This document shows positions 2,689 to 29,802 of a DNA stretch of 33,032 nt, piece after piece. The translations under genes were made by a program, and so were the position numbers. The stretch comes from Desulfobacterales bacterium. Lineage in GTDB: Bacteria > Desulfobacterota > Desulfobulbia > Desulfobulbales > VMSU01. The DNA lies in the NCBI GenBank assembly GCA_011330685.1, contig DRPV01000325.1:1-33032 (forward strand), read 5' to 3'. A model generated the notes under the pieces. The model did not search any database and was not told where the DNA came from. It saw only the letters and a program-made list of their open reading frames with translations. The number at the start of each line of letters is the position of its first letter. Position 1 is the stretch's first letter.

Positions 2689-3291
2689 CTATTCCAGACC
2701 GGCACTGATGGTCTTGGATAATTTGCTGTCCACGGTCTCCTTAATCCATTCCGGGGTTATCTGCGGCCCCTCCTTGCGCATGGCCTTGGTCACATTGCCA
2801 AACCCCACCCGCAGTTTACGGTCACTCAGCAGATTAACGGCCTTAGTTAAGCGTTCCTTAACCTCTTCCGGACTCAGCCCCTCACTCTGACCCAGGGGCC
2901 CAAGCTCCTTTGTCCGTATTGTGAAATCAGTAATCAACTTCACAAAGCGCGGTGCCTCAGCGGCCGAGGCCCAATGCAGGCCAAAGCGCTCCGGATTTAT
3001 ACCAATCTCGGTTAAAACCTTTTTGACCAAGGCGTTAACTCCCATAGCGTCATAATTACCAACCTGGTAATGGCATTCACCAAGTTGTCAGCCGCCGGTA
3101 AATATGGCATCGGCCCCCTCAACAAAGCCCCTGAGGATAAAGGCGGCATCCACCCGGCCAGTACACATAACCCGAATAGTACGGAGATTAGGCGGATACT
3201 GGTATCGCGAAACCCCGGCCGCGTCAGCGGCGGCGTAACAGCACCAATTACACAAAAACCCAAGTATTTTGGGATTAAACTCGTCAGTCAT
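2689..3291 (-). CDS. mvhD: MvhD/FrhD-type Fe-S electron-transfer subunit, predicted selenoprotein
   Basis: Read through one in-frame TGA at 3088-3090, this is a 200-residue MvhD-family protein. These small proteins bind a [2Fe-2S] cluster and pass electrons from a hydrogenase or formate dehydrogenase to HdrA. The N-terminal half shows LGFLCNWCCYAAADAAG and a VMCTGRVD motif. The second half carries the family motif GG(U)QLGECHYQVGNY, with the UGA at the Cys position of the usual GCxxGxCHY. Both halves are in the same frame and neither is complete alone. The start ATG 3291 lies 2 bases after the hdrA stop, with GAGGAG at the end of hdrA as ribosome-binding site. At 200 residues it is longer than the typical 130-150; the extra C-terminal 60 residues are charged and helical. 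The UGA is residue 68. Confidence 0.88.
3055..3090 (-). promoter_or_regulatory. Candidate SECIS hairpin after the mvhD UGA
   Basis: On the minus strand the UGA (3090-3088) is followed after 16 bases by ATTACC (3071-3066), a five-base AGGTT loop and GGTAAT (3060-3055), a perfect 6-bp stem. Bacterial SECIS elements lie inside the coding region just downstream of UGA, so the place fits. Folding energy was not computed. Confidence 0.5.
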
Positions 3292-3293
3292 GC

Positions 3294-6200
3294 TTACTCC
3301 TCAATTGAATTACCAAAGGCCTCAATCTGGGCGATAATTTGTTCATTTGTAAAGCCCCCCATGGAAATAGCAAAGGTGGGGCAGTGAGAGGCACAGATTC
3401 CGCAGGCCTTACAGGAGGCCACTATGGTCTCGGCCTTGCGTTTTTTATCTACCTTAATAATCTGAATGGCTTGATATGGGCAGAGACTGGCGCACAGACC
3501 ACAGCCGATACAGGCCTCCTGATCAACATGGGAGACGATGGGCTCCACGGAGACCGAGCCCTTGACCAGAGGCATGGCTGCCTTGGCGGCCGCGGCCTGA
3601 GCCTGGACAATAGTTTCATTCAGGGGCTTGGGCGAGTGAGCCAGGCCGCAGACATAAACCCCGGCCACCGGCATCTCCACGGGCCGCAGTTTGACATGGG
3701 CCTCCATAAAGAATTTATGCTCCGTTACCGGCACCTTGAGTAATTTACTCAAAGCCTCGGTACCCTGGGGCACAATGCCCACACTGAGAGCAATAACCTC
3801 GGGCTGCATCACAACATCTTCCTGCAGCAGCGGGTCGTGAAAACTTATTTCCACCTTCTGACCTTTTTTGGTGATCCGGGGTTTATTATCCACCTCATAG
3901 GGAATAAAGACGACGCCCTTCTCTCTGGCCTGCTGATATTTTTCCTCAGCATAACCATAGGTGCGAAGATCACGATAGAGGACAAATACCTGAGATTCAG
4001 GATTTATTTCTTTAATATGCAGGGCATTCTTAACGGCATGATTACAGCAGACCTTACTGCAGTAATTCAGGTCGTCGCCTCGGCTGCCGGCGCATTGCAC
4101 CATGACTACTGAGGATGGAGCCCGTTTTTTGGCCTTACCGAAGAGCCTGGTCTCTAACTCCTGCTGGGTGATTATCTGCTTTGATTTTACCAATTCCTGC
4201 CCCAAAACCTGGGCCGGTTTATGCTCCCGGCCGCCGGTGGCAAGAATAATTACCCCATGGTCAATGGTATGTTCGGCGGTTTTCTTGCCTTCCTGTACCT
4301 TGAGTACTGAAGAAAAATTACCCACAAAGCCGTTGATAGTAATTAGCTCGGCCTTGGTTATAACCTCAATCAAGGCACTGCTTTTTACCCTGGAGATAAG
4401 CTTCTTCAGAGTAGCGGCCGTTCCAACTCCTTCAATGGTCTGCTTAATGACCAGCAGATTACCGCCAAGCTCTGCCTCCTTCTCTACCAGTGTACAATGG
4501 AATCCCTGCTCGGCCAGAGTCAGAGCGGCAGTCAACCCCGCCACACCGCCCCCTAAAACCAGGGCCTTGTCAGTTACCGGTACCGTTTGCTCGGCCAGCG
4601 GCTGAATACGGTTGGCCTTGGCCACTGCCATGCGGATTAAATCCATGGATTTCTCAGTGGCGGCCTCAGGCTCATTGGCATGAACCCAGGAGCATTGGTC
4701 GCGGATATTAACCATCTCGAACAGGGAACGGTTCAGCCCGGCATCCTTCAGCGTCTCTTGAAACAGAGGCTCGTGGGTTCGCGGAGAACAGGCGGCTATG
4801 ACCACCCGGTTCAAATTATGCTCTTTAATTGTCTTCTTTAACATCTCCTGGGCATCCTGCGAGCAGGAATACATGGACTCGGAGTGATAAACGACATTTT
4901 CCATACCATCGGTATATTTATCAACCCTGGGCACATCCACTACGCCGCCGATATTAATACCACAATGACAGGTAAAAACCCCGATACGAATATCCTCTCC
5001 GGTAATATCATGTTCGGCGGGATATGATTTTACCACATAGCCCTTACCCCGCTGTTTCTTCAAGAGACCGGCGGCAATACCAGCCGCGGCTGAAGACTGG
5101 GTGACACTCTCGGGAATATCACAGGGGCCCTGGAAGGCGCCAGCCACATAAATACCCGGCTGGGACGAATTAAGGGGATGAAAGGGGTCAGTCCGGCAAA
5201 AATCAAACTTATTAAGTTCCACATCCAGGAGCTTAGAAATTTTGCGGGCATCTTTAGGGGCATCAAGACCGACGGAGAGCACCACCATGTCAAAGGGGTC
5301 AAAACGATGCCGACCGTCCATAGTGGAATAGGTAAGTCTCAGGCCCTTGGCACCCCAGGGGGTAACACCTGCCACCTTAGCCCGGACAAATTTGATGCCG
5401 AACTGTTCCTCAGCCCGTTTGCGGGCCGCGTCAAAGTCCTTGCCCTGAGTCCGCATGTCCATATAAAAAATGATGATATCCAGCTCTGGATCGTGCTCCT
5501 TGGCAACCATAGCCTCCTTGATGGCATACATACAGCAGACCGACGAGCAATAGCCGTTACCACAGCCCAGATCCCGTGACCCCACACACTGAATAAAAGC
5601 CAGACTCTTGGGATGACGTTGATCCGACAGACAGAGGACATTCCCCTGATAGGGGCCGGAGGGATTTAAAAGGCGCTCAAATTCCAGGCTGGTAAGCACA
5701 TCGGCATGGACACCGTAACTATATTTAGCCAAGGTACTGTCAGGCACCTTGCCAAATCCAGGCGCCAGCACCACGGCACCAACCGCAATCTTTTTAACCT
5801 TGGGCTTCTGATTAAAATTGATGGCGTGGCTGCGGCATACCGGCACACATATCTGGCAGGTATCCTCGGTAACATGCAGACAGGCCGCAGGATCAATATA
5901 ATAGGTAGCCGGTACCGCCTGCGGGTAATCAATATGGATGGGGCGGGTTAGATTCAGGCCCTCATTAAATGTATCCTGCAGGTGGCGCGGGCAGTAAGTG
6001 GTACATAAACCGCAGGCCGTACATTTATCGGCATCAATAAAACGAGGCCGCATATTAACCTTGGCCGTAAAGGCCCCCGGCTTACCTTCAAGTCCTGTAA
6101 AATCAGCGTTGCTTAAAATTTCAATATTGGGAGACCGACCGGCCTCTACCAGTTTTGGTGCCAGGATTCAGAGGGCGCAGTCATTGGTGGGAAAGGTCTT

Positions 6201-6502: not shown

Positions 6503-9500
6503 TCAAATTATCAAATCATTATGATGTCTTCTGTCATCCGGACTCTGAACCTCAACCCGGATGGCGCATATTTTGTACTGCGGACTTCGGGAGAGGCGGT
6601 CAAGGCTGTTTAAGGTCAACTGATTGACCGGAACCTCGGCAAAATGATAGGGAATAAATACTGTCCCGACCTGTGACCTGTCAGTCAGAGCCGCCCGCAC
6701 CCTTACGGAACCCCTTCTTGAGGTCATCTTGATCCAGTCTCCTTCTTCAATTCCAAGACGTTGGGCATCAAGAGGATTTATCTCAGCCCTGGCCTCACCA
6801 TATATCTTACCCAGCCCGGCGGTCTTCCTGGTCATACTGCCAAAATTATACTGAGCGTAGTGACGGCCGGTGGTGAAGAGCATAGGGAACTCGTCATCGG
6901 GCATCTCTTTAGGCGGCGTATAATCCTCCGGGATAAAGAGGCCGCGGCCTCGGGTAAACTTGCCGACATGCATAACCGTGGTGCCAGAATGACTCTTATT
7001 AGGTACCGGCCACTGCAGGCCAACCTCCTCAATCCGCTGATAGGTAATTCCTTTATACTGCGGGGTGAGAGAGGCAATCTCGGTGAAAATATCGGCCGCT
7101 GATTCATAATTCATTTCATAGCCCATTTTCTTGGACAACTCACAGAATATCCGCCAATCGGCCTTGGCCAGTCCAGGGGGGTCAACGGCCTTCCGTATCC
7201 GCTGCACCCGGCGCTCAGTACTGGTAAAGGTACCATCTTTCTCGGCAAAGCAAGAGGCCGGCAACACCACATCCGCCATCTTGGCGGTGTCGGTGAGGAA
7301 TATATCCTGCACCAGTAGAAAATCCAGTTTTTCCAAGGCCTGCACGGCATGATGGGCATTGGGATCGGCCAATACCGGATCTTCGCCCATAATGTAGAGC
7401 CCGCGGATATCACCCTCATGAATAGCATCCCAGACCTCGGTGGCAGCCTTACCGGGCCGCCGGGGTAATTTAACACCCCACATCTCTTCATAACGATCAA
7501 AGATGTCATCATTTTTAAGACCGGCATAACCCGGCAGAGTGTTGAACAGGGCACCCATATCACAGGCACCCTGAACATTATTCTGCCCCCGCAGGGGATT
7601 AACCCCACCCCCGGCGGTACCCATCTTGCCGCAGAGCATGGCGAGGTTAGCGACACATTTAACATTATCGGTACCGGTGGCATGATGGGCCAGGCCCATA
7701 CCGTAAAAGACAGCGCATTTTTTACCGGGGCTGGCGTACAGACGAGCCACGGCATGGAGCTGCTCCGAATCTATGCCGGTGATCTCCTCCACATAGGACG
7801 GGGTATATTTTTCGGTAACAATGAGCAGCTCTTCAAAATTCTCGGTACGCTGCTCGACAAATTCCTTATCATAAAGTTCTTCCTTGATGATAACCCGCAT
7901 CATACCGTTTAACAGGGCGACATCACTACCCGGTTTATTACGTACCCATTGTTCGGCACGCCGGGCGAAATCAGTACCCCTGGGATCAACCACAATAAGC
8001 CTGGTACCGTTATCCAAGGCCTGATGAATCCGCAGGCCGATGGTGGGATGCCCGGTATCGGCATTGGAACCAATCATGAAGATTACATCAGAGTCTTTAA
8101 TATCCGCAATGGAATTAGTCATTGCGCCGCTGCCGAAAGAGATGGCCAAACTGGCCACCGTGGGAGCGTGTCAGAGCCTGGCGCAGTGGTCGATATTATT
8201 CGTCCCCAGCGCCGTACGCATAAACTTCTGCATTATAAAATTGTCTTCATTGGTGGCCCTGGCGCAGGAAAATCCGGCGATGGAATCCGGCCCGTACATG
8301 GCTCTCAAATCGAAGAAGTGTTTGGCCACATGGTTCAAGGCCTCTTCCCAGGTAGTCTCCACCAGTTGGCCGCCCTGGCGGATGAGGGGAGCGGTGAGAC
8401 GATCACGATGCTGCACAAAGTCAAAACCGAAACGCCCCTTAACACAGAGAGCGCCATAATTAGGCGCCAGCTCCGGATCGGCGCTGACCTCCATAATCGT
8501 ATTGTTCTTAATCCTCAAGATCAACTGGCATCCAGCGCCGCAATAGGGACAGGTAGTTTGAACCTCGCGAATTTTTTCGTTCACCACCGGGACATTGGCT
8601 GCTGTTTTAGATAAAGCACCGGTGGAACAGAATTCGGCGCAACGGCCGCAGGCCACACAATTATCATTAAAGCTGAGTTTAATCCCCTGAGCCCGGCCAA
8701 GCTCATCAAAACCGGCCGCCGTCAGCTCCAGGGCCTTGTATTCACAGCTGTTCCGGCAACGCTGGCAATATATACATTTATTAAGATCAACGCTTAAGGT
8801 GGGATGCGTGGTGTCCTTGGCATAAAGCGGGATTTTACCCATGCCGGTCTTATTAAGATTGATCTTATGCTCTATAGCGAGAGACTTTAAGTCGCAGCGC
8901 TCAAAGGCCGAACAGCCGCAGGACAGACAGCGGTTAGCCTCTTTGAGAGCCATTTCCTCGGTGAAACCGAGTTTAATCTGATCAAAATCCTGAATGGCAA
9001 TCTCCGGCGGGCGAGTGGGCATTTTCTCGCGGAGCTTAACATTGATGCCTTCGAAATTACGCATATCGACATCATCAAAGGAACGTCCCCGGCTGAAATT
9101 AAAACGCTCGTCGGTTTGTTTGGCAGTCCCCATTAAGTAGCTGTGGATATTTTCGGCGGCCCGCCGGGCGGCAACCACCGTCTGGATAACTGTCCGCGGC
9201 CCGGACACTACGTCACCAGCCGCGAATATTCCCTCCACATTGGTCGATGAATTCCGAACATTAGCCTTCAAACAATTCTTTTGTGAAAGTTCCAGAGTTT
9301 CTTCAATCCCGGCGGCTGATATTTTACTTTTTTCAAAGGCCATCTGCCCCATGGAGTGGACAATACAATCGACCTCAATATGATTGGAACTGCCGGGAAT
9401 GGCCTCGGGATGACGTACTCCGCGCTTGTCCGGTTCGGTGAGGCGCATACGGATTAGTTCAATATCAAGGCCGTGCTCAGCGCTTGATATCTGCACCGGG

Positions 9501-10648
9501 GCGGCCGCCATGAGAAACTGCACCCCCTCATTCTCCGCTTCATGAATAACCCGCTGATTGGCGGTCATTCCGGTGCGGGTTTTGGGGTAGATGACCGTAA
9601 CCTGCTCTACTCCGGAGCGCAACAGAGATCGGGCGGCCTCAAGGGCGATATTATTACCGCCGAATACCGCCGCCGTGGCTCCAAGTTCCGGGCTGTTACC
9701 CTCGGCGATACGCCTTAATAAATCAGTAGCAGAATATATACCGGGCCGGACAGCGCCAGGCACATCCAGGGGTTTAGGCACCCATGAACCAGTACCGATA
9801 AATATAGCGTCAAACCCCTGATCTTTTAAATCCTGCAGCAGAAAATCTTCTCCCCAACGCTGTTCAAATCTTACCGAAATTCCCAGCCGCAAAATAGCAG
9901 AGGTTTCATAATCCAGAATTTTGGGGGAAATTTTATAATCCGGAATCCCGTATCGCAGCATACCGCCCAATTTGGGCATGGCCTCAAATACCGTAACCTG
10001 ATGTCCCTTACGGGCCAGATAAAAGGCATTTGTAAGACCAGCCGGGCCGCCGCCGATAACGGCTACTCGTTTTCCGGTTGCCGGCTCCCGGCTCAACTTA
10101 AGATCAATCTTATTGGCCATACACCAGTCAGCCACAAAACGTTTAAGATGGTTGATGGATACCGGCTCATCCACCAGAATCCGTCGACAGCGGGTCTCGC
10201 AGAACCTTGGACAAACCCGGCCCACGGAAAAGGGGAAGGGATTGCGCTCCATAATCAGACGCATGGCCTCTTCGTATTGACCTTTGGCAATATGGGCGAT
10301 ATAGCCCTGGACATTTATCTGCCCCGGACAGGTGAGATTACAGGGTGCCTTACAGTCACCGAAATGAGTGGCGACGAGAATAGTTAAACGTTCCTTGCGC
10401 TGTTCAACCAGCTCATCAGAGGAGGTAACCACCCGCATCCCCTCTTTAACTATCGTCATGCAGGAACGAAGGGGGGTCTTATCTCCATCAATCTCTACGA
10501 GACATAGTTTACAAGGCTGCTCGGCGTTTTTATCACCAACCCGGCAAAGGGTGGGAATATGAATTCCAGCCCGCCTGGCGGCAGTGAGGACGGTTATCCC
10601 CTCCTGAGCAGTGATTTCCTGGCCATCAATTATTAGATTTATCGACAT
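6503..10648 (-). CDS. fdhA: Formate dehydrogenase fused to a GltD-like FAD domain, predicted selenoprotein
   Basis: Reading through TGA 8171-8173 gives a 1381-residue protein. Order: a [2Fe-2S] domain (Cys35, 46, 49, 63); a GltD/NfnB-like Fe-S and FAD domain (about 95-540, with VIGGGPAGLTN near 199), the type that uses NAD(P)H; two [4Fe-4S] motifs (CIYCQRC near 625 and CVACGRC near 664); then the molybdopterin FdhA part starting at CPYCGAGC (near 700). UGA codes residue 826 in DHCARLUHAPTV, where known formate dehydrogenases have the Mo- or W-binding Sec or Cys. The domain order suggests transfer between NAD(P)H, Fe-S carriers and CO2/formate. The start ATG 10648 lacks an obvious ribosome-binding site. 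No signal peptide is seen, so it should be cytoplasmic. It lies between acsC and hdrA; formate for Fhs is its likely product. It could instead run as a formate oxidase. Confidence 0.92.
8141..8173 (-). promoter_or_regulatory. Candidate SECIS hairpin after the fdhA UGA
   Basis: The UGA (8173-8171) is followed by 11 bases and then an 8-bp stem: GGTGGCCA (8159-8152) pairs with TGGCCATC (8148-8141, one G-U pair) around a GTT loop. This is the strongest of the three post-UGA hairpins and is well placed for SelB-directed decoding. Confidence 0.55.
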
Positions 10649-10812: not shown

Positions 10813-12162
10813 TCAGCTGGGCTTCCATTCCTTCAGAAATGCCGGGATATGCCCTGCCTCACGGGGACCGATGGTAATTGTCCAGTCCGGCAGCTCTTCT
10901 TCCAGCTCGCCCTTAATATTAGCTAAATAACCGGGAATCAAGAGTTCGCGATGCTTGACCTTGTCCTCAATGCCTGATTTTTTCATAAACTGGGCAATAA
11001 GATCGGCACCAAATTTACCAGCCGCCCAGGCAGTCAGGACGGAAAGCCCCTCGGTATCTTTAATGAGCAGCCAGGATGGAACCTTGGAGCCCTCTATCTC
11101 ACCGGAGACGATGAAATAGGTAAGCGAGAAGTTACAGGTGATGATAACCGGCGAATTCTCATCCGGGCCGTTCAACGGGTAAATATCCTCCTCAACCACC
11201 ATGGGACGCTGGGGATCGGTGAAAAGATTCATTCGCTCCAGGAACAGGGGAAAGAGGGTATCTCCCTGAAGATCAGAGAGAATAATCATCCCGGCGTATT
11301 TAGCCACCAGAACGGAAGAAAGCATGGCCTCCATCATCAGATCATCGCTCATTTCGCAGGGAAAGGCGATGGTGGGAAAGCCTAACGGCTTATATTTTTT
11401 ATTGATGGCCGCCCGCCGGCAGACAATATTGTCCTCAAAGGCGGCCCGCAGGGTACGGGCTCCGGAGTCAATAATCAGGTCTTTTAAGCCCGCCTTGCTC
11501 AATTCCTCAGATATATATACGGCATCATCAAGATTGACCCCCTTTACCGCCAGTGGACATTTAAAATCCTTGGCAAGCGCGGCCATATCATTATAGTTAT
11601 CAGCGGTGGCGGCATAGATAAGGGGCTGGCGGTCGGAGCAGATCTCCAAGGCCGCCTTCATATTGGCCGTTGATTCAGACATCAATATAATATTGGCATT
11701 AGGGGCCTTATCAATTACCGTCTTTAATAAAGAGGTAAAGGCTGCCTCGTCAGTCAGATCCTTAACTGCCACGAGGTCGGGTTTCATAATCACCCCGACT
11801 CGTTCGTAACTCAGCTTATTATAATTATCGAGACGACTGCCAATGGCAGCTTCATCCATCTCGGTGGTGAGCAGCACCCCGATACCGGTTTGATGTTCAA
11901 AGCGCTTTTCGTGCCGGGCCAGACAGGTCTCACCGCCCACGACAAAGGCATCATCACCGTTACCTATTTTTATAGTCCTGATCGGCGGAGCTGAAGCCTC
12001 ACCAATAGTGGCCTTAACCTCATCATCGACGTAGGGACACTCACCAATCTCCATCTGGCCGGCCGCCACTTTCATGGCAAAGGCCAAACAAGTTGGAATC
12101 TTGCATTCCCCGCAATTCTTCTTGGGAAGCATTTTTAATATCTGTATGCCAGTTAAAGCCAT
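10813..12162 (-). CDS. acsC: Corrinoid iron-sulfur protein, large (gamma) subunit
   Basis: A 449-residue AcsC/CdhE, the large subunit of the corrinoid Fe-S protein that carries the methyl group from methyl-tetrahydrofolate to acetyl-CoA synthase. The N-terminal [4Fe-4S] domain shows NCGECKIPTCLAFAMK followed by GECPY, the family CX2CX4CX16C pattern. The rest has the TIM-barrel and C-terminal corrinoid-binding regions, including IIDSGARTLRAAFEDN and a final PGYLANIKGELEEEL segment. Length equals the family norm. The ATG at 12162 is preceded by GGAGG. Its partner AcsD is encoded within the metF-acsD fusion, beyond acsB. The 226-base gap to acsB holds a long hairpin, so the two may not be made in equal amount. 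Confidence 0.95.
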   Translation of the reverse strand: MALTGIQILKMLPKKNCGECKIPTCLAFAMKVAAGQMEIGECPYVDDEVKATIGEASAPPIRTIKIGNGDDAFVVGGETCLARHEKRFEHQTGIGVLLTTEMDEAAIGSRLDNYNKLSYERVGVIMKPDLVAVKDLTDEAAFTSLLKTVIDKAPNANIILMSESTANMKAALEICSDRQPLIYAATADNYNDMAALAKDFKCPLAVKGVNLDDAVYISEELSKAGLKDLIIDSGARTLRAAFEDNIVCRRAAINKKYKPLGFPTIAFPCEMSDDLMMEAMLSSVLVAKYAGMIILSDLQGDTLFPLFLERMNLFTDPQRPMVVEEDIYPLNGPDENSPVIITCNFSLTYFIVSGEIEGSKVPSWLLIKDTEGLSVLTAWAAGKFGADLIAQFMKKSGIEDKVKHRELLIPGYLANIKGELEEELPDWTITIGPREAGHIPAFLKEWKPS

Positions 12163-12388: not shown

Positions 12389-14593
12389 TTAGACTGCCAT
12401 CTCCATCTCTAAGGCCGGATGCCCCTTCTCCTTCAGGAAGACCATAATCTCCTCCTCAGTGGAGCCCTGTTCTTCGGTGGCAATCATGTCGTATAACTCC
12501 GGCATCTCTAATTCTTCGCAACGCTTAATCAATTTATCCTTCAGCTGCTCCTTCAGTGCCTTGGGCAGCCAGACCAGCCTCTTCAAGCCGCCCTCCGCCA
12601 ACAATAACTTGCGGCTGGTGATAAAATGTTTTGAAACTCCCATAAAGCCCGGGGTCTGCGCCCCGCCGCCGGCCATACCGGCCAGGGTGGTGAATTTCAT
12701 ACCGGCCGGGGTCATGCCGCGATAATCACGATCAACAATCATTACCCCGTTACATTGAGGCAGCATGGCGGCAATACACTCAAAGCAACCGCAGGCCGTC
12801 ATCGGATTATTCATCAATGAATAGCAGGAAACCGCCGGTACGGCACCCCGGGAGGCCTGCTTGACAAAATCATTAATTCCGCTGAAATCTCCCATCGTGG
12901 GATCAAGGCATTCGCCCTTCTCAATGGGTTGATTGGGGCCGGTGGGATTAATCTGATATGAGGCCTTACCGTCCAACCAGTTATAGGCACCGCACATCCC
13001 TACCCGCTCCGGGGTTATAACACAGACATGACTCGGGGCAAAGGACTGGCACAGGGTGCATGAATAAAAAATATCCTCGGTCTCGTCAGTCATATTGCCG
13101 AGGCGCAGATCACGCTCGCCATAAACCTTGAGGGCCAGTTCCATTACCTCTTCCACCTTTTCCTGAATGGTATAAATTTTGACCTGCACCTTATCGAGAA
13201 TGGCCCCGAACTCCTGATGCAGTTTACCATGCAGTACGGTACCGATGTGTTTGAAGGAAAAGCCCTTTTCCACGGCCCCCTTGCCGATTCTTACCCACAT
13301 GATATTACGCTGACCAATATGCATAATGCCCTGAATATAATTGGTCAGATGATGAAACTGGCGCTCAAGAATCGGCTCGAAATCAGACTGCATCTCACGG
13401 CCGGCAACCTCTACCAGGATAGCGATGGGCAGATTCTGGCCCTCCTCGATGTCTTTTATGTCCGGGCCTTCAAGCACCACCAGACCATCCTGCACCTCAT
13501 CCATGGGTTTGGAGACCAAGACCTCAACACCAGTGGTTCTGCCGCCGCCGCATTCCATATAAAGATCGTCTTTCCGAATCCGCTCACCCTCAAAGGCAGG
13601 GCCAAAGGCCATGGGAATATCAATCTTGCTGACATTAACCTTCAGACCGCGCACCTCAATGGCCTTCTGTACCATCTCATCGTGCGGCACATTACTTACC
13701 ACATGCTCATAGGTGCATATACCGGTGGGCAGAACCTCGGGAATATCATAATCAGAGATAGTGGGAAAGCCCCAGTTAATGGCCCCGGCGGCATTGGCAT
13801 ACCACTCGTCACAAACCGGGCCAAAGGCCATTACAAAGGCAAAGGTACGATCCTTGTTGTATTTCAGATTGGCCTGATAGTCTCCAGGCTTAATACCGCC
13901 GAAGGCCAAGGCCACCCGGCAGGCAAAGCCCAGGGCAAAGACGGCGCTGGTATAGGTGGGACCAAAGGGCACCAGGCGGGTATTCCAGCCCACCTGTACC
14001 CCGCTCTCGACCAGCTGCTCGGGCATCCGGATATCACCGGAGTGATCATGCATGAAGATATAGAGGTTTTTCTCCTGGAGCTCCAGGGCGATCTTGCTGG
14101 CCACCTCCTTATCCTTGGGGGCTCCCATGATAACCGCGAAACCAGGGGCGGTACCATCAACAAATTCTACCCCGCGTTTACGAAAAATAACGTCATCAGC
14201 CGCCCCAAGCCAGATATTTTCCGCCGTGGGGTCTTCGGTCATGGTATAAAACTTAGGGTCCTTAATATAGCGGATTGCCTCATACATCTCCTCAGCAAAA
14301 ATAGTGGCCATACCGGCATCCAAGGCCTGTCCCAGATAAGGCAGCCAGACATCATTGCCGACATTGGCCGGCAACAGCTGACGGCATTCAGTGAAGATAT
14401 CACGCATATCGCCCAGAGTCTGAATCTTAGCACCCAGCATACTGTAAATAACCGGCAGATAATAGGTGGTGTTCGGAAAAGACACCTCCTGCTCCATGCC
14501 GTATTCCTTGATGGCCGCCTCAAAACTCTCTTCGGCCATATCAATAATTTTATGGGCCCCCCTGATGGCGGCAGAACAAATAATTTTAGACAT
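12389..14593 (-). CDS. acsB: Acetyl-CoA synthase (CO dehydrogenase/ACS alpha subunit)
   Basis: A 734-residue bacterial-type AcsB, which condenses the methyl group, CO and CoA into acetyl-CoA. It has the full N-terminal CODH-docking domain that archaeal CdhC lacks. The A-cluster ligands are visible: SCTLCQSFAPSHVC and GMCGAYNW near residues 508-530, and CGCFEC near 597-602. The length and Cys spacing match the Moorella enzyme. ATG 14593 has AAGGAG upstream. It follows the metF-acsD fusion by 91 bases and is followed after 226 bases by acsC. The partner CODH, CooS, is encoded three genes upstream in the same cluster. Confidence 0.97.
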   Translation of the reverse strand: MSKIICSAAIRGAHKIIDMAEESFEAAIKEYGMEQEVSFPNTTYYLPVIYSMLGAKIQTLGDMRDIFTECRQLLPANVGNDVWLPYLGQALDAGMATIFAEEMYEAIRYIKDPKFYTMTEDPTAENIWLGAADDVIFRKRGVEFVDGTAPGFAVIMGAPKDKEVASKIALELQEKNLYIFMHDHSGDIRMPEQLVESGVQVGWNTRLVPFGPTYTSAVFALGFACRVALAFGGIKPGDYQANLKYNKDRTFAFVMAFGPVCDEWYANAAGAINWGFPTISDYDIPEVLPTGICTYEHVVSNVPHDEMVQKAIEVRGLKVNVSKIDIPMAFGPAFEGERIRKDDLYMECGGGRTTGVEVLVSKPMDEVQDGLVVLEGPDIKDIEEGQNLPIAILVEVAGREMQSDFEPILERQFHHLTNYIQGIMHIGQRNIMWVRIGKGAVEKGFSFKHIGTVLHGKLHQEFGAILDKVQVKIYTIQEKVEEVMELALKVYGERDLRLGNMTDETEDIFYSCTLCQSFAPSHVCVITPERVGMCGAYNWLDGKASYQINPTGPNQPIEKGECLDPTMGDFSGINDFVKQASRGAVPAVSCYSLMNNPMTACGCFECIAAMLPQCNGVMIVDRDYRGMTPAGMKFTTLAGMAGGGAQTPGFMGVSKHFITSRKLLLAEGGLKRLVWLPKALKEQLKDKLIKRCEELEMPELYDMIATEEQGSTEEEIMVFLKEKGHPALEMEMAV

Positions 14594-14684: not shown

Positions 14685-17363
14685 TCAACCCAGCAGACTG
14701 TTGATTAACTCTTTGGCAAGATCCATGGCTCTGGGATGTCTCATAATCAAGACCTCTCCACCGCAGAGCAGCATACAGGCAGCAGTAATCGCCTCCATCA
14801 TCACCCCGCGCCTCTCCTGATCGCCCAGTAGTTCGTCCGTGGGCAGACGGCATTCCTTGGCCTTCCAGACCTCACGACCCAGATTACAGATTATTGGTAC
14901 CTGCAGTTTTTCATCCTGCTGGGTGAGAGCGGCAAGGCGAATCCGCTCCATGACGGAATAGGTGTACTCAATACCATATCCCAGAGCACCCACCGAAGGA
15001 TCCATCATTACCGTGTCCAATGAAACGCCAAGATTCTCAAGAAGAATATTAAGCTGTTTAGCAAGGTTGACATCAATGGGAGAGGCAGCGACAATGGGGT
15101 GCTGGAAGGCCATGGCTGTGGCCCCTAATGAGCGATAATTGGCGTCGGAAAGAGGCGCCAGACAGACCTTCTTATCACCAATTTCGGCGGTTAATTCCCG
15201 CAGGGTATCGGTATCTTTATCGGAGTTGCCGCAACCCCAGACGATGATGGGTACATCCACCGCCTGGATAACCTCAGCGGCGGTTTTGGCGGCCTCAGCG
15301 GAATCGCGGTTCAGGCCGTTGGGATCGGTGCTGGCCAATGAGATACAGAGGGCATCGGCACCATACTCTTTAACGCATTTCTGAGCCCAGGCCACAGGAT
15401 TACCGAGGACATCGGCAAAATGACGGCTCAAAGGCTCGGGCCATTCCTCGTAACCGGCATCAACAACATCCATGGCTATTAACTGCTTGTGAGGAATTTC
15501 ACCCTCAAAAAGCTGGAAGGGCAAGGCCTTGGAGCCGCCCACGGTAACACTGTTATCGCCGTTACCAAGCACGGTTTCACGAATGACACCGTTATAGGCC
15601 TGAGTGTAATTATCCGGTGCTATCTTAGAAGCCCGTTCAGCAAGCTTTATTTTTTCAAGTTCCAGGGTTGGAACAGCGGGAGCGGCCGTTTCAGCAGCGA
15701 CTGCCTTTTTGCTCTCCTCCGCCTCCCTAACAGCGGCCGCTTCCTTGGCCTCTTCAGCCGCCTTGGCATCAGCCGCTTTTTTGGCCTCTTCTGCTGCCTT
15801 GGCATCAGCCGCCTTTTTAGCCTCCTCTGCTGCCTTGGCATCGGCAGCCTTTTTAGCCTCCTCTGCCGCCTTGGCATCGGCTGCCTTTTGGGCCTCTTCC
15901 GCCTCTTTGGCAGCGGCCGCTTCCTTGGCCTCATCCATTGCCTTGGTATCTTCCACTGCTGCTGGAGGCGTAGAAACCGGGGCAACAGGTGAAGGAGGAG
16001 CGGGAGCCGTTGGAGTTGGAGCAACCGGCGCGGCCGTCTCCGCCACCGGTGGTTCCTTAACTAAAATTTCCTGAGCGCTGATAAACTTCACCAAGGCGTT
16101 AAATTGATCGTCATTTAAGCCGTAGGCGTGTTTAAGGGCATCAAGACCCATTTTTACCGACTCAAGGGCCATGACCCGTTCTTTTTCATTCATTATATGT
16201 TCTCCTGCATCATCTGTCGTTTGTACCACTTTACGGTCAGTACCAATTTCGGCAGCCTGAGCCTGGGCCGCGGCCACAATTTCACTGGCCTCCTGACGCG
16301 CCCTGGCCAAGATTTCCTCGCCAAGATCAGCCGCCTCAGGAGCCGCTGTTTCCGTAACCTCTTCAACCACGGCAGCAGCCTCAGCACTCCCTTGTACCAC
16401 AATGGTCTCCGGGGTGGTGAGATTGGGGGCAATAATTAAATCCTCAATAACGGGACGTTGATCGAGCCCGGCCCGGCTGACAATCTCCGGTACGGCGCTC
16501 TCCCACTCTATGGCCATAATATGTACTCCGGCCACACCCTTGATTTCCTTTACCTGATTGATTATATCAACACAGATATTTATTCCTTCATCCTCTTTAT
16601 CTGCCGCGCCCCGCAACCGGTCAATGACCGCGTCCGGCACATCCATACCCGGTACAAAATTCTTCATATAACGAGCCATTCCCAGAGAACGGGGCGGCGT
16701 AACACCGGCCAGAATATAGGCCTTCTCAGGCAGTCCCAGATCCCGGGCCATCTCCATGAAGCGGGCAAATTTCTCGACATTATAGACAATCTGGGTCTGG
16801 ATAAAGTCGGCGCCATTGGCAATCTTTTTACCCATCCGGGCGGCCCGAAAATCCGGGGGGCCGGCAAAAGGATTGGCGGCGGCTCCGAGAAAGAGACGGG
16901 GCGGGCAGTCCTTAATTTTCTCACCACATTGAAATTGCTGGTCATCACGCAGAGAACGCATCATACCCAGCATCTGAATGGAGTCCATATCAAAGACACC
17001 CTTCGATCCGGGATGATTACCGAATTTTTGATGATCGCCAGTGAGACAGAGGAGGTTTTTGGCTCCAAGGGCGGCAGCCCCGAGAATATCGCTCTGCATG
17101 CCTATCCGGTTCCGATCCCGGCAGGTCATCTGGATAACCGGTTCAACGCCCTCCGCCATCGCGGCTAACCCGGCGGCAATACTGCTCATCCTCACAATTG
17201 CCGTCTGGCAATCGGTGATATTAACCGCGTCCACATGACCTTTTAAAAACCGGGCCTTGTTACGTACCACCTCAATATCACTACTCTTAGGCGGGCCAAG
17301 TTCGCCGGTTACAGCGAAATGGCCGCCTTTAAGAACCTGTTCCAAGCGGCTGGCTGATTTCAT
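14685..17363 (-). CDS. metF-acsD: MetF-AcsD fusion: methylenetetrahydrofolate reductase joined to corrinoid Fe-S protein small subunit
   Basis: One uninterrupted 892-residue frame. Residues 1 to about 310 are MetF: an early FAVTGELGPPKSSD strand, MTCRDRNR, GVTPPRS and a folate-barrel fold; MetF reduces methylene- to methyl-tetrahydrofolate. Residues about 315-390 are an Ala/Glu-rich linker. Residues 391-435 form a small helical region, followed by a Pro/Ala stretch and four or five 12-residue DAKAAEEAKKAA repeats (about 475-546). Residues about 566-892 are AcsD/CdhD, the small subunit that pairs with AcsC, with MDPSVGALGYGIEYTYSVME and CNLGREVWKAKECRLP. The codon flavour is even throughout and no stop or frame change is seen. 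Inside, ATG 16193 (residue 391) has an excellent ribosome-binding site, so a separate 502-residue AcsD may also be made. I do not know of a named MetF-AcsD protein. Confidence 0.88.
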   Translation of the reverse strand: MKSASRLEQVLKGGHFAVTGELGPPKSSDIEVVRNKARFLKGHVDAVNITDCQTAIVRMSSIAAGLAAMAEGVEPVIQMTCRDRNRIGMQSDILGAAALGAKNLLCLTGDHQKFGNHPGSKGVFDMDSIQMLGMMRSLRDDQQFQCGEKIKDCPPRLFLGAAANPFAGPPDFRAARMGKKIANGADFIQTQIVYNVEKFARFMEMARDLGLPEKAYILAGVTPPRSLGMARYMKNFVPGMDVPDAVIDRLRGAADKEDEGINICVDIINQVKEIKGVAGVHIMAIEWESAVPEIVSRAGLDQRPVIEDLIIAPNLTTPETIVVQGSAEAAAVVEEVTETAAPEAADLGEEILARARQEASEIVAAAQAQAAEIGTDRKVVQTTDDAGEHIMNEKERVMALESVKMGLDALKHAYGLNDDQFNALVKFISAQEILVKEPPVAETAAPVAPTPTAPAPPSPVAPVSTPPAAVEDTKAMDEAKEAAAAKEAEEAQKAADAKAAEEAKKAADAKAAEEAKKAADAKAAEEAKKAADAKAAEEAKEAAAVREAEESKKAVAAETAAPAVPTLELEKIKLAERASKIAPDNYTQAYNGVIRETVLGNGDNSVTVGGSKALPFQLFEGEIPHKQLIAMDVVDAGYEEWPEPLSRHFADVLGNPVAWAQKCVKEYGADALCISLASTDPNGLNRDSAEAAKTAAEVIQAVDVPIIVWGCGNSDKDTDTLRELTAEIGDKKVCLAPLSDANYRSLGATAMAFQHPIVAASPIDVNLAKQLNILLENLGVSLDTVMMDPSVGALGYGIEYTYSVMERIRLAALTQQDEKLQVPIICNLGREVWKAKECRLPTDELLGDQERRGVMMEAITAACMLLCGGEVLIMRHPRAMDLAKELINSLLG
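15725..15940 (-). repeat. 36-base tandem repeat coding for an Ala-rich linker
   Basis: The string ccttggcatc starts at 15761, 15797, 15833 and 15869, exactly 36 bases apart, with a degenerate further unit on each side. Each unit encodes 12 residues of the type DAKAAEEAKKAA, predicted helical and TolA-like. Units differ mostly at third codon positions, so they are not fresh duplications. The number of units may vary between strains. Confidence 0.85.
16191..16210 (-). promoter_or_regulatory. Internal ribosome-binding site and start codon inside metF-acsD
   Basis: On the minus strand GCAGGAG is followed after 8 bases by ATG (first base 16193), then AATGAAAAAGAACGG. The spacing is close to ideal and the site is better than those in front of several complete genes in this window. 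In the fusion it encodes DAGEHI-M391. It suggests that acsD was or still is translated on its own. Confidence 0.55.
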
Positions 17364-17439: not shown

Positions 17440-19431
17440 TCAGCTGCCGGGGCCGGCGCAGCCTACCCCTGCTACGGCTCCGCCTCCCAGGTCTCGACGC
17501 ATATCCATATCAAACAATACCCGATCCTGCTTTTTGTTGATTCCCAAGGCCTCACGCTTATCATCAATATGAGCGATCATCTTATGCGCCAGCTTAACGG
17601 GATCGGGCTCGATAGCCCATTTTCCGCCGCTAAGCTCCTCATGACCTTCCGTGATATATTTCGTCATTTTTTTGGAACCGGTAACCGGTAAGGCGTTAAA
17701 TATAACATAGAGACCGCTGCCCACAAAATACTGCCCGATAGCCACCGCCTTTTCACTCATCCATATTGGCGAAGTTCCCGCCACCGGTAAGTCGGAGATA
17801 TGCTCACCAAGCCCCCCCTCTGCCACCATCTGACTGACGGCAAGCAACAGGCGGCTGTTATCAACACAGGAGCCCATATGAAGAACAGGAGGTGTTCCCA
17901 GGGTCTCACATATCTCAGCCAGACCAGCACCAGCAAACTCCTGAGCAGCTTCAGGGCGCATAAGACCCGCCCGGCCCAGAGCCGTGGCTGAACAGCCGGT
18001 GGCCAGCACCAGGACATTATTTTTAATGAGTTCCCTGGCAATGATTTCGTGGGTGTCGTCGGAGTATTTATAGTTATCACAGCCAACCATGGCGGCCACT
18101 CCCCGAATCCGGCCGTTAATTATGTTGTCATTCAGAGGCCGATAACTGGCCCGAAAGCGGCCACCCTGAATATAATTAACGGTTTCATTACTGAAACCGG
18201 CCACCACATCCAGTTTTTTACTCTCCGGAATATAGAATTTGCCACGTTTTTTGTAGTTGGCAATGGCCTTGGTCAGAATTTCCTTGGCACTGATTATGGC
18301 ATTATCGTCGTCAAACTGAATATGAACGGCACCTTCCATCTTGGCCCGGTAATTGGTAGTAATAATATCCGTATGAAAGGACTTGGCAACCTCGGCCACT
18401 GATTGCATGATGCACTGAATATCTACAACCATGGCCTCCACGGCACCGGTGGCAAGAACAATCTCCTGCTGAATAAAACCAGCCGCCACCGGAATACCGC
18501 GGCGCATGAGAATCTCATTACCAGTACAGCAGACACCAACAAGGTTAATCCCCTTGGCGCCGGCCTTTTTGGCCAAAGCCAGCATGTCATCCTCCTGGGC
18601 GGCCATGCACAGAGCCTCGGCCAGCAGCGGTTCATGCCCATGTACGGTAACATTTACCTGATCCTTTTGCAGAACACCAATATCAACGATGGAGCGGATA
18701 GGCACCGGTGTGCCAAACATGATATCAGTCAATTCCGTTGACATCATGGAGGCCCCCCAACCGTCGGCAAGGGCGCAGCGATTGGCCTGGAGCATGAGGT
18801 TTTTATATTCCTGATCAACACCCATATGGGTACGATGCATTAACTCGACGACCTCACGGTCAATTCCCCTGGGCTCAACCCCGATTTTCTTCCACATGGC
18901 CTGCAGGGTAGCCGGAGCCCGTTTCAGCATGGTCAGGAAACCACTTTGCTGACCGAATTCCGCCAGGCATTTTTCACCAAGTTCCAGGGCAATTTCATTT
19001 TTATCCCGCCCCTCAATCTCAACATCAAAGACCTTGGCCAGGGTATGAAGTTTAGCCACATCCTTGATTTGATGCTCGGTTTCACCCTTGGCAGTGGCGA
19101 TAAATCCCTGCACCATCTCACGGGCATGATCCGTATGAGCGGCAGAACCAGCAGCAACCATCCGGGAGAAATTACGAGCGGCAACCGTTTCGGCAGTAGC
19201 CCCGCAGACGCCGACCATCTCCGCGACCCCGTCGATAATCTGACACGGCCCCATATTACAGTTTCGGCAGCAGACCCCGCCGGAGCCAAAGAGACAGGCC
19301 GACATTCCCCGGTCATCAACCCGGTGAAAGGCGGTCTTAACGCCCTTGGCGACATCCTGGGCCAAAACCTCCTTGGTAGAGGGGCAGGTTATATTATCGC
19401 ATCCTTCACAGCCAATTTTTCGCATACTCAT
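17440..19431 (-). CDS. cooS: Ni-Fe-S carbon monoxide dehydrogenase catalytic subunit
   Basis: A 663-residue CooS/AcsA, reducing CO2 to CO for acetyl-CoA synthase. The N-terminus has CEGCDNITC and then the B/D-cluster motif CLFGSGGVCCRNCNMGPC. All C-cluster ligands can be recognised: His in VTVHGHEPLLAE, and Cys in GVCCTGNEI, VDIQCIMQ, MVGCDNYKYSD, LATGCSATALG and HMGSCVDNSR. The protein should therefore be an active CODH and not a ligand-deficient paralogue. ATG 19431 is preceded by AAGGAG. It sits between folD and metF-acsD in the acs cluster, which points to the carbon-fixing role (acsA). The reaction is reversible, so acetate oxidation is equally possible. Confidence 0.96.
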   Translation of the reverse strand: MSMRKIGCEGCDNITCPSTKEVLAQDVAKGVKTAFHRVDDRGMSACLFGSGGVCCRNCNMGPCQIIDGVAEMVGVCGATAETVAARNFSRMVAAGSAAHTDHAREMVQGFIATAKGETEHQIKDVAKLHTLAKVFDVEIEGRDKNEIALELGEKCLAEFGQQSGFLTMLKRAPATLQAMWKKIGVEPRGIDREVVELMHRTHMGVDQEYKNLMLQANRCALADGWGASMMSTELTDIMFGTPVPIRSIVDIGVLQKDQVNVTVHGHEPLLAEALCMAAQEDDMLALAKKAGAKGINLVGVCCTGNEILMRRGIPVAAGFIQQEIVLATGAVEAMVVDIQCIMQSVAEVAKSFHTDIITTNYRAKMEGAVHIQFDDDNAIISAKEILTKAIANYKKRGKFYIPESKKLDVVAGFSNETVNYIQGGRFRASYRPLNDNIINGRIRGVAAMVGCDNYKYSDDTHEIIARELIKNNVLVLATGCSATALGRAGLMRPEAAQEFAGAGLAEICETLGTPPVLHMGSCVDNSRLLLAVSQMVAEGGLGEHISDLPVAGTSPIWMSEKAVAIGQYFVGSGLYVIFNALPVTGSKKMTKYITEGHEELSGGKWAIEPDPVKLAHKMIAHIDDKREALGINKKQDRVLFDMDMRRDLGGGAVAGVGCAGPGS

Positions 19432-20731: not shown

Positions 20732-22969
20732 TCATTGGCCTGCCGGCCGGCCGCGACTGCCGGCTAATTTAACAATAATGCCATTGGCATGACCAAGACG
20801 TGAGGCCAGTGCCTTGAATATATGATGGGCGACATCCGGGTATTTTTCAATAACCTCGAGAAGCTTATCGCCGGGATAACGCTTCAGTTTACTGCGCCCC
20901 TTGGAGATAATACTGGCCGAGCGCATTTCCCCGGTAACCGCCGACATTTCACCGAAATATTCACCGGGCTGGACAATTTCAGCAATTTTCTTACCATCCT
21001 TGACGACCATCACCGCGCCCTGGATAAGCTTAAAAAAATCCTTATCATTATTGCCCTGCCTGATTATAAAATCACTCTCCTGATATTCCTCGACATCAGG
21101 ATTAACGAGATAGGCGGGTAGGCTTTCCTCTGTAACCACAGTTTTTCTAAGGATCTCGGCAATACTGGTTGCCCCTTCAATCACCTTATTAACCCCGGCC
21201 ATGCGCAGGGTCTTCATCCCTTCTTGAATGGCGATTTTGCGTAGTTGATCCTCTGGAACCTCGGCGTTAATGGCCTTGCTCACCTCATCGGTGACCTCCA
21301 TGAGCTCAAAGAGACCCACCCGCCCCTTATAACCGCCGCCATTGCAGTTACTGCACCCCTTGGGCCCATAAATATTTAACTCATTCACCCCCTCTTCGGC
21401 AAAACCCATGGCAACCAATTCTTCGGCTTTATAGCTTTTAGTCACCTCCTTGCATTCCGGACACAGGCGTCGTGCCAGACGCTGAGACAGCACCATGGTA
21501 ATGGCCGAGGCTAACATAAAGGCCGGGATACCAATATCCACCAGACGGCCAATGGTGGCCGGGCAGTCATTGGTATGCAGGGTTGAAAATACAAGATGGC
21601 CGGTCATGGCGGCCTTGATGGCGATTTCCGCCGTCTCCATATCCCGAATTTCGCCCACCATGATAATATCAGGATCCTGACGTAAAAAGGCCTTCAAAGC
21701 GGCGGAGAAGGTCATCCCCACCTCATTAATGACATTGACCTGATTGATACCCTTAAAGTTAAATTCCACCGGATCCTCGGCGGTGAGGATCTTGGTTCCC
21801 TCATGGTTCAATGAATTCAAGACCGAATAGAGGGTAACCGTCTTGCCACTGCCCGTGGGACCGGTTACCAGCAGCAGCCCCTGGGGACGGGAGATACAGC
21901 GTTGCAGGGCCTCGAAGGTCGGCTGTTCAAAACCCAGCTTGGTGAGATCGACATTAAGGGATGCCTTATCCAGAATACGCAGAACAATGGACTCGCCAAA
22001 GAGAGTGGGCAGAGTGGAAACCCGGAAATCGACGGCCCTGGTACGGCTGATCCGCATCTTAATACGTCCATCCTGGGGGATGCGGCGTTCAGTAATATCC
22101 AAGGATGCCAATATCTTAATTCTGGAGACCAGTGCGTTTTTAATGGTGAGAGGCAGATTCATGGCCCGGTAAAGGGTGCCGTCCAAGCGATAACGAACCT
22201 GCAGATTCTTCTCGTAGGGCTCAATATGAATATCACTGACCCCATCCTTTACCGCCTTGATAAGGATACCGCTGACCAGCTTAATGATTGGCGCGTCAGA
22301 GGCCGAATATTGTTCAACCTCGTTTTCCTCATCACCAATCATTTCATAGTCTTCTGCCGCCTCCGAAGCCAGGGAACCGAAATCATCAATTTCGGTAACC
22401 GGCTCTTCGTCTTCCTCCTCTTCCCCGCCGTTTTTTATCCCGGCACTGATTAGTTCCTGATAGACTTCATCGTTAATTTTGTAATACTTACGATAGGCCT
22501 CGATAATATCATTTTCCACCGAGATACTGACGGAGAGGCCCATCTTGACCTCGGTCTGCAAGGATTCCACCGCCGCGGTATCGGTGGGCTCCGTCATGGT
22601 AATATGCAGGGTGTTCCCCACGGAACGGAGCGGAAAAGCCATATACTTCACGGCAATTTCAAAGGGCATTATCTTTAAAACATCCAGACTGGGAGGCTCA
22701 GCCGCGATATGTACCGCCGGATAATTATGAACCCGGCTCAAGACCTTGAGGATGGTATCTTCTTCTATATAACCAAGACGGATGAGAATACTACCGAGAC
22801 GGCCGCCGGATTTTTTCTGAAGGTCGAGGGCCTCATTAAGTTGAGTATTACTTATTTGCCCCTCTTTGCGGAGAATCTCACCAATCTTCATCTTACCGGC
22901 CCCGGACTGGTCTTTCACCGAGGCCCGAAGACTGGATTGCTGTTTATTTTGTGGTTTAGGAGGGGACAT
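20732..22969 (-). CDS. PilB/GspE-type secretion ATPase with MshEN and cyclic-nucleotide-binding domains
   Basis: A 745-residue hexameric ATPase of the type IV pilus/type II secretion family, working at the inner membrane base. Residues about 27-165 form an MshEN region with two tandem motifs (KIGEILRKEGQI and RLGSILIRLGYI), the fold that binds c-di-GMP in some relatives. The ATPase core has Walker A GPTGSGKT at about 370, Walker B IIMVGEIRDMETAE, and the zinc tetracysteine CPEC...CSNC. Residues about 620-735 add a cyclic-nucleotide-binding domain with IIRQGNNDKDFF and a cassette PGEYFGEMSAVTGEMRSASI, which is unusual for PilB. The N-terminal 26 residues are low in complexity; ATG 22969 lacks a clear ribosome-binding site and M27 is an alternative. 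No other pilus gene is near. Confidence 0.9.
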   Translation of the reverse strand: MSPPKPQNKQQSSLRASVKDQSGAGKMKIGEILRKEGQISNTQLNEALDLQKKSGGRLGSILIRLGYIEEDTILKVLSRVHNYPAVHIAAEPPSLDVLKIMPFEIAVKYMAFPLRSVGNTLHITMTEPTDTAAVESLQTEVKMGLSVSISVENDIIEAYRKYYKINDEVYQELISAGIKNGGEEEEDEEPVTEIDDFGSLASEAAEDYEMIGDEENEVEQYSASDAPIIKLVSGILIKAVKDGVSDIHIEPYEKNLQVRYRLDGTLYRAMNLPLTIKNALVSRIKILASLDITERRIPQDGRIKMRISRTRAVDFRVSTLPTLFGESIVLRILDKASLNVDLTKLGFEQPTFEALQRCISRPQGLLLVTGPTGSGKTVTLYSVLNSLNHEGTKILTAEDPVEFNFKGINQVNVINEVGMTFSAALKAFLRQDPDIIMVGEIRDMETAEIAIKAAMTGHLVFSTLHTNDCPATIGRLVDIGIPAFMLASAITMVLSQRLARRLCPECKEVTKSYKAEELVAMGFAEEGVNELNIYGPKGCSNCNGGGYKGRVGLFELMEVTDEVSKAINAEVPEDQLRKIAIQEGMKTLRMAGVNKVIEGATSIAEILRKTVVTEESLPAYLVNPDVEEYQESDFIIRQGNNDKDFFKLIQGAVMVVKDGKKIAEIVQPGEYFGEMSAVTGEMRSASIISKGRSKLKRYPGDKLLEVIEKYPDVAHHIFKALASRLGHANGIIVKLAGSRGRPAGQ

Positions 22970-28503: not shown

Positions 28504-29802
28504 ATGCCCATCGCAAAAAATAATATTAATGCCGAGATACAGACCGCCTTTGTGCAACCCAGAAAGCCTCAAAGCCCACCAGGCCCGACCGCTGATAATT
28601 TTCAGCAAATATTGACCGACAATATGCACCAGCCTCCGCATACTGAAAAAAGCACCAACCAAATTATAAAGTTAGGGGTAATAGATAAAAATACCCCGAC
28701 TGTCTCCAATCTTCTTCATCAAAACAAAAGATTTAAGGATGAGACCTGGAATATCATTTTTTCAGCCGCTAACCGCGGCAAGCGTTTTAGAGATATACGG
28801 GCGGGCAGCGAGGTTACCCTCAACCTCGCTAATAATGAAATCAGCTGGCACCGGCCGTCTCACAAGCCCGCAATTCCCGCTTCCGCGTGGAGTAGTCAGA
28901 AACTTACCGCCGACGGCCTGGTCATAGTGGGCAAAATAAGCCGTGAGACGCCCACGGTTTCAAACCTCTTGCGGCGTAATAAAATTTATCATGATGAAGC
29001 CTGGAACATAATCCTTTCCAGCATCAACAGTGACAAGCCCTTCAACACCATACGCCCAGGGACAACTATAGCCATCAACCCTCAAACCTTTGAACTGTCT
29101 TTTATCCGCCACCCGCGCCAGGGTGCGGCAGCCAAAACAATCAGTTCCGCCGCCGAGGAGCATCTATCCACGGCGGTTACTAATTTTTTCACCGATAATA
29201 AGAGCATTTCCCAGAAACTGGTCGATAAAATCAGGCCGTATATAGGCCGTCCATACAGTGAGATAGATTGTTACGGCCTGGTGATCAGAGGATTAAAGGG
29301 CTTAGGCGTAAAATATAGCGGCAACGGCGGCCTGCGCGAGACCCTGGAAAAAATGGCCATGGCACAGGGAAAACCTCTAAACGCCTACCAGAATGGTGAA
29401 GGTTTGATCAAGGCGGCCGGTAAAACCACCTTTGCCAAGACCTTTAATCACATTAAACATCCCGAGAAACTGGCTGAACAAACATTTATCGGTGTTGAGA
29501 AGTCTCTCCGCCAGGGGATGATTCTATCATTTTCCACCCCTTCCCAGGGCCACACAGGCGTTATAGCAAGAGATAACGGGGAATGGAGTTATCTTAATTC
29601 CGGCCTCATCGACCACCAGCTTGACCGGGGCCGAACCGCCATGCGGGTGGGCGAAGAATCACTGGAAAAAGAAATAGACAACTGGTTCAAGCTGGCAAAA
29701 AACAACAACGAGCCCCTGGAAATAAATATCGGTATGTTAGACAAGAACAAGCTGAATAATTTTCGTTCCCACCACGCCGAGATCAGCCATCGGCTGTTTT
29801 AA
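28504..29802 (+). CDS. NlpC/P60-like protein with two LysM/OapA-like repeats
   Basis: A 432-residue protein not recognised as a named gene. Residues about 53-111 and 135-195 are two copies of a 60-residue module sharing TPTVSNLL, a DE(T/A)WNII core and a (I/R)RxG(S/T) turn; this resembles LysM or OapA-like peptidoglycan-binding modules. The C-terminal part has Cys256 in SEIDCYGLVIRG and His350 in SQGHTGVIARDNG, placed as the catalytic pair of an NlpC/P60 cysteine peptidase. No signal peptide or membrane segment is visible; the first 50 residues are Pro/Gln-rich and contain FQQILTDNM. ATG 28504 follows AAGGAGAG. A sigma-54-type promoter lies just upstream. A role in cell wall cutting, perhaps linked with flagella given RpoN control, is an inference. 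Confidence 0.6.
   Translation: MPIAKNNINAEIQTAFVQPRKPQSPPGPTADNFQQILTDNMHQPPHTEKSTNQIIKLGVIDKNTPTVSNLLHQNKRFKDETWNIIFSAANRGKRFRDIRAGSEVTLNLANNEISWHRPSHKPAIPASAWSSQKLTADGLVIVGKISRETPTVSNLLRRNKIYHDEAWNIILSSINSDKPFNTIRPGTTIAINPQTFELSFIRHPRQGAAAKTISSAAEEHLSTAVTNFFTDNKSISQKLVDKIRPYIGRPYSEIDCYGLVIRGLKGLGVKYSGNGGLRETLEKMAMAQGKPLNAYQNGEGLIKAAGKTTFAKTFNHIKHPEKLAEQTFIGVEKSLRQGMILSFSTPSQGHTGVIARDNGEWSYLNSGLIDHQLDRGRTAMRVGEESLEKEIDNWFKLAKNNNEPLEINIGMLDKNKLNNFRSHHAEISHRLF

Follow-up and report, generated by a model that had tools for sequence, protein, structure and literature searches.

MetF and AcsD are both enzymes of the Wood-Ljungdahl pathway, an ancient route of CO2 fixation. In the stretch of DNA that we analysed, 33,032 nucleotides of a contig from a Desulfobacterales bacterium (the window), both are encoded by a single open frame on the minus strand (14685–17363; 892 aa, ~95 kDa), which runs without interruption from an ATG at 17363 to a stop codon at 14687–14685; the plus strand across the same interval contains many stops. 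This agrees with a first-pass annotation of the sequence, which had described a continuous MetF-linker-AcsD frame inside an acs cluster, giving no strand. The gene for the catalytic subunit of CO dehydrogenase (CooS/AcsA type; 17440–19431, minus strand, TIGR01702) lies upstream together with genes for FolD, a pilB-type protein and formate-THF ligase. The genes for acetyl-CoA synthase (AcsB; 12389–14593, minus strand, NF040764) and for AcsC, the large subunit of the corrinoid/iron-sulfur protein and the partner of AcsD (10813–12162, minus strand, PRK04165, 6e-177), lie downstream, where there are also genes for a formate dehydrogenase fusion and for proteins of HdrA-like and FlpD/MvhD type. The acsD domain is therefore encoded in one cluster with AcsB, AcsC and CO dehydrogenase, and the fused gene is the only AcsD gene of its genome.

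The formate dehydrogenase region (6503–10648, minus strand) consists of two frames that are in phase across a TGA at 8173–8171 (ARL-TGA-HAPTV), a typical selenocysteine site, and when read through they encode a single protein in which formate dehydrogenase is fused with NAD(P)H/FeS domains. The HdrA-like (919 aa) and FlpD/MvhD-like (118 aa) proteins that come after it (2689–6053, minus strand) are arranged as in Desulfurivibrio AMeS2. The pilB-type ATPase (20732–22969, minus strand) has a C-terminal cyclic-nucleotide-binding domain, and its gene separates folD from fhs within the Wood-Ljungdahl cluster. Elsewhere in the window, a 432-aa frame (28504–29802, plus strand) has no Pfam match, and an Rfam scan of the window gave no matches.

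The first-pass annotation suggested looking for PF02219 and PF03599 in one protein, and both are matched here, as well as being fused in relatives. The MetF TIM barrel occupies residues 1–300 (16464–17363, minus strand); the Pfam MTHFR profile (PF02219) matches residues 6–299 over positions 1–287 of 287 (2.2e-34, 119.5 bits against a cut-off of 24), and a Foldseek search with an AlphaFold model of the protein retrieves the MTHFR of E. coli and that of T. thermophilus (8eac/1v93, E ~1e-14; 6e-15 for 8eac_A). The match to the classical TIGR00676 model is weak (52.7 bits versus a cut-off of 293.7). The catalytic Glu and Asp of E. coli MTHFR are Glu28 and Asp120; possible counterparts in the fused MetF are E21 and D110, neither of which varies across 48 homologues. 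The complete barrel is shared with 1v93 (T. thermophilus) and 1b5t (E. coli), but unlike either of these MetF is here joined to AcsD. From its profile and fold, the fused MetF is predicted to act as a methylenetetrahydrofolate reductase.

The C-terminal domain (residues 566–892; 14688–15668, minus strand) is an AcsD barrel, the small subunit of the corrinoid/iron-sulfur protein. Pfam CdhD (PF03599) matches residues 597–835 (1.1e-44, 153 bits), and 4djd_D and 2h9a_B are recovered by both sequence and fold (Foldseek E ~1e-30). AcsD/CdhD structures (4djd_D, 2h9a_B and 9fzy_E) match the domain over its full length with 37–42% identity and TM-scores of 0.89–0.93 on the target, and the fusion likewise lies beside acsB and acsC. 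However, the solved AcsD proteins stand alone at ~310–323 aa, whereas this one carries in addition a linker, a helical hairpin and, in the long product, MetF. Its predicted role is to form with AcsC the heterodimer that holds the corrinoid.

The linker is modular. The AlphaFold model, built with 48 homologues, has a mean pLDDT of 75 and a pTM of 0.48, and therefore does not give the arrangement of the domains. Within it MetF extends to about residue 300 and is followed by a weakly predicted or disordered stretch (309–343), an isolated helix with predicted disorder on either side (344–375; 16239–16334, minus strand), further disorder (376–391), a conserved two-helix hairpin that belongs to no known family (393–435; 16059–16187, minus strand), disorder (436–484), an EAK-rich single helix of 66 residues spanning ~10 nm (485–550; 15714–15911, minus strand), and disorder (551–573) before AcsD. 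A Pfam scan of the linker gave no match, and a profile search of the hairpin against the PDB found nothing convincing; an apparent TAL-effector match (E 4e-13) was judged spurious, as no stretch passes alone. The idea that the hairpin is shared with other Wood-Ljungdahl proteins was rejected, since each genome has one credible copy, in every case within the fusion gene. In a group of fusions with long linkers the linker instead has TPR repeats (L061; TPR_2, 4e-13) and coiled-coil-like sequence, and weaker TPR matches are present in a Thermodesulfobacteriales linker (L039). Differing interaction-type modules thus separate the same two enzymes in different lineages.

The metF-acsD fusion is genuine and conserved. 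Of 38 related genomes covered by a protein search, 37 gave matches, and in 22 of the 38 there is one unbroken match along nearly the entire protein, the frames measuring 853–910 aa; additional relatives are also fused, with linkers at which BLAST splits the match. Named records include Desulfocapsa, Desulfurivibrio, Electronema, Thermosulfurimonas and other Thermodesulfobacteria. The fusion is found across the order Desulfobulbales and, beyond it, in Thermodesulfobacteria and further lineages of this phylum. Phylum-wide, 228 of 297 genomes are matched at 1e-50; the fused frame is, among the matches listed, limited to Desulfobulbales and a few other families, and most of the remaining genomes have MetF in a frame of ~305–350 aa. 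Most other Desulfobacterota keep separate genes, consistent with the first-pass annotation's view of the normal arrangement. Over all loci, 92 are scored as fused. A frameshift or stop interrupts four loci of the Desulfobulbales type and one Thermodesulfatator locus, in most cases within MetF or AcsD, and these breaks look like draft-assembly errors. At two Desulfobacterales loci (L096 and L102) metF and acsD are separate but adjacent and in the same order, which is likely the pre-fusion arrangement. A quick MetF tree (71 rows) can be explained by a single switch between the fused and the separate state (58 versus 10 scored rows), but the branch support is 58 and a single origin is therefore neither shown nor rejected. 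The wide conservation of the covalent link indicates that it is under selection.

The linker also contains a candidate translation start. Residues 386–393 form a motif, A-G-E-x-x-M-N-E, encoded as GCA GGA GAA nnn nnn ATG AAT GAA, and we collected 60 distinct Desulfobulbales-type fusions with this motif. In all of them GGAG is positioned exactly 8 nt 5' of an in-frame ATG. At the locus described here the putative Shine-Dalgarno sequence is AGGAG (16202–16206, minus strand; within the codons GCA GGA GAA of residues 386–388) and the ATG is that of Met391 (16191–16193, minus strand), bordering the hairpin domain of the model; initiation there would give a nested product of hairpin, linker and AcsD of 502 aa and ~53 kDa (14685–16193, minus strand). 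The motif is also kept in the four broken and in truncated Desulfobulbales-type loci. At Thermodesulfobacteria and long-linker fusions we found no internal start at one conserved place. The long-linker loci L115 and L075/L125 have GGAGG just 5' of an ATG at the same hairpin boundary, which is possibly an older or an independent internal start.

Codon usage in the motif is constrained well beyond the peptide. The Gly codon is GGA in 60/60 fusions, against 8.4 expected, although GGA makes up only ~14% of the Gly codons of these genes; in one of them (L090) it is the sole GGA among 61 Gly codons. This column is the most extreme of 482 testable codon columns (z 19.7; the next is 14.3) and, of 282 conserved columns of four- or six-fold degeneracy, no other is restricted to one codon; 46 of the 49 Gly columns use all four codons. 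Because all columns share one tree, relatedness alone fails to explain it. The preceding Ala codon is GCA or GCG in 51/51 cases (17.2 expected), which keeps A/G before the GGAG, and where Arg follows Met-Asn-Glu it is AGA in 12/12 (0.76 expected). GGAG lies 5–9 nt upstream of all 60 motif Met codons but of only 29 of 1757 other in-frame Met codons. Median pairing with the anti-Shine-Dalgarno sequence of the 16S tail is -7.4 kcal/mol at the internal site versus -2.9 kcal/mol at other in-frame Met codons, and resembles that of true operon starts (-6.0 kcal/mol for metF and -8.2 kcal/mol for acsB). The site is, at the median, within the least structured 3% of the gene. We conclude from these comparisons that this stretch is probably selected as a translation start, beyond its protein sequence alone, and with the ribosome-binding site and start conserved in 60/60 fusions, AcsD should also arise without MetF. 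The first-pass annotation had anticipated one fused product; the fused frame stands, but this start signal predicts a MetF-free AcsD as well.

The explanation that we favour, and consider likely, is that one frame specifies two proteins, an 892-aa MetF-linker-AcsD and a 502-aa hairpin-linker-AcsD, with MetF tethered near the corrinoid protein. Initiation at the metF ATG would yield the long form and initiation at the conserved internal site the short form, and each should be able to combine with AcsC into a corrinoid/iron-sulfur protein. With a single AcsD gene, every corrinoid protein would bear MetF unless there is internal initiation or cleavage; the short form would supply MetF-free AcsD, and MetF would thus not be bound to a 1:1 ratio with AcsC. 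MetF would then be a tethered passenger on the corrinoid protein, possibly on a minority of copies, and not fixed to every one. In the long form MetF would be carried on a flexible arm (a disordered stretch, a helix, the hairpin, a Pro/Ala-rich stretch and the 10-nm helix), such that methylenetetrahydrofolate reduction may take place near the corrinoid protein. Use of the internal start, the ratio of the products and a function in proximity are all deduced, and the absence of a conserved site in the Thermodesulfobacteria and long-linker fusions implies that a second product is not required for fused AcsD everywhere.

An alternative explanation is that the protein is cut after translation within the linker to give mainly separate MetF and AcsD, with the fusion serving only to couple their synthesis. 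The predicted disorder at residues 309–343, 376–391, 436–484 and 551–573 would be suited to this, but the linker modules are either kept or, in the long-linker group with its TPR repeats, swapped for other interaction modules, which suggests that the joined form matters, and we regard cleavage as unlikely. Slightly less probable still is that there is fusion only, with MetF on each AcsD and the GGAG and ATG kept for some other reason such as slowing the ribosome for folding. The lineages without the site are nonetheless fused, which accords with this explanation; however, a pause needs neither an ATG at a fixed 8 nt in 60/60 genes nor A-rich AGA codons in 12/12 nor low median structure, and constraint on the peptide cannot account for one codon in 60/60. 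We think it very improbable that the Shine-Dalgarno-like site drives programmed frameshifting to release free MetF. Such sequences can stimulate frameshifting, and with ATGA at 60/60 sites the +1 frame stops exactly there at a TGA, but the ATGA is explained by the conserved Met-Asn pair, no slippery heptamer is conserved (the third codon after the ATG is mostly AAA or AGA and differs in a few rows), and in the +1 frame the open stretch upstream has a median length of only 17 codons; we therefore reject it. An error of assembly or sequencing at the joint, or a recent readthrough confined to one genome, has next to no likelihood even though this genome is a draft of 330 contigs, because the same frame is present in tens of independent genomes, including single-contig genomes (G013, G136, G163, G237 and G300) and the isolate records of Thermosulfurimonas dismutans S95 and Desulfurivibrio sp. 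AMeS2. This excludes a missed stop or frameshift in the single assembly.

The first-pass annotation took the covalent link to suggest channelling between the folate and carbonyl branches. The methyltransferase AcsE would act between MetF and the corrinoid protein, and it is neither fused nor encoded within the window; an AcsE-like gene is located on another contig (L112), matching PRK07535 with 113 bits, below the cut-off of 259. Channelling into the carbonyl branch requires AcsE between MetF and AcsD. The model has flexible segments on both sides of the long helix and no fixed interface between MetF and AcsD. Proximity of MetF and AcsD is plausible; direct channelling is a plausible hypothesis. 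A bolder version, in which the internal start sets the ratio of MetF-bearing to MetF-free protein and the linker serves as a docking scaffold, gathering MetF, AcsE and CODH/ACS for local passage of methyl groups to the corrinoid, is one we advance only tentatively and think somewhat more apt to be wrong than right.

The genome also encodes a second MTHFR, joined to a MetV-like C-terminal domain (PF12225; L002:1434–2936, contig C54), and its gene adjoins one for a cobalamin-pathway-like methyltransferase. With this MetF-MetV type enzyme present, the folate branch may have a reductase besides the fused MetF. On another contig (L140:1038–2144, contig C285), a 368-aa protein with an NVWCAAGG sequence and two ferredoxin motifs looks like an HgcAB-like fusion, related to mercury-methylation proteins.

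No MetV-like domain (PF12225) is present among the window proteins scanned. Moorella thermoacetica has a MetFV-HdrABC-MvhD complex, in which MetF is partnered by MetV and by Hdr proteins (PMC10553843, PMC9012536). HdrA-like and MvhD/FlpD genes are similarly present in the fusion's cluster, but here MetF is joined to AcsD and MetV is not adjacent, the MetF-MetV-like protein being encoded on another contig. Desulfurivibrio sp. AMeS2 has the same Fdh-HdrA-MvhD neighbourhood, and its HdrL/MvhD genes are assigned to formate dehydrogenase (PMC12142623). Nested in-frame starts are known for Cas11b inside a Cas gene (PMC11899642) and for the embedded lysin of phage Ms6 lysA (PMC3111421), and as in these there is an internal Shine-Dalgarno sequence and a start in the same frame with a short, here predicted, C-terminal product. 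The Shine-Dalgarno sequence is at normal spacing in 60/60 fusions across species, and its synonymous sites are constrained beyond the protein. In the open-access literature we found no case of a nested start in a Wood-Ljungdahl gene or in a two-enzyme fusion. The E2 subunits of 2-oxoacid dehydrogenases act as swinging arms and consist of a catalytic domain, an Ala/Pro-rich linker, a small helical domain, a linker and a second domain. The fusion has the same order of modules, but this is an analogy only, as no sequence relation was found for the hairpin, which has no known cofactor site.

The first-pass annotation knew of no described fusion of this kind, and we likewise found no mention of the MetF-AcsD fusion or its nested start in the main texts of the open-access papers searched. 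Neither was found on term searches within PMC12827605, PMC4911364, PMC12142623, PMC9751629, PMC8780430, PMC7117923, PMC10553843, PMC2702500 and PMC9012536. A study of pathway evolution in Desulfobacterota treats AcsD as a stand-alone subunit (PMC12827605), TDIS_1006 of T. dismutans is given as an MTHFR only (PMC4911364), and the genome papers label the gene simply MTHFR or a component of CODH/ACS. Single-gene searches can therefore misread genomes that bear the fusion. The component parts are known; what appears new is their combination, with the predicted dual coding.

The fusion spans a large group of sulfur-metabolising bacteria, in which evolution has joined an enzyme of the methyl branch to the methyl acceptor, and the retained start signal should allow the extent of this joining to be adjusted. 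Changing a single codon to a synonymous one should shift the ratio of the long and short forms, and would provide a clean test of the importance of the tether. If the docking-scaffold reading is true, with a linker made of the hairpin and the 10-nm helix here and of a coiled coil and TPR repeats elsewhere, then one gene would set the composition of a Wood-Ljungdahl assembly.
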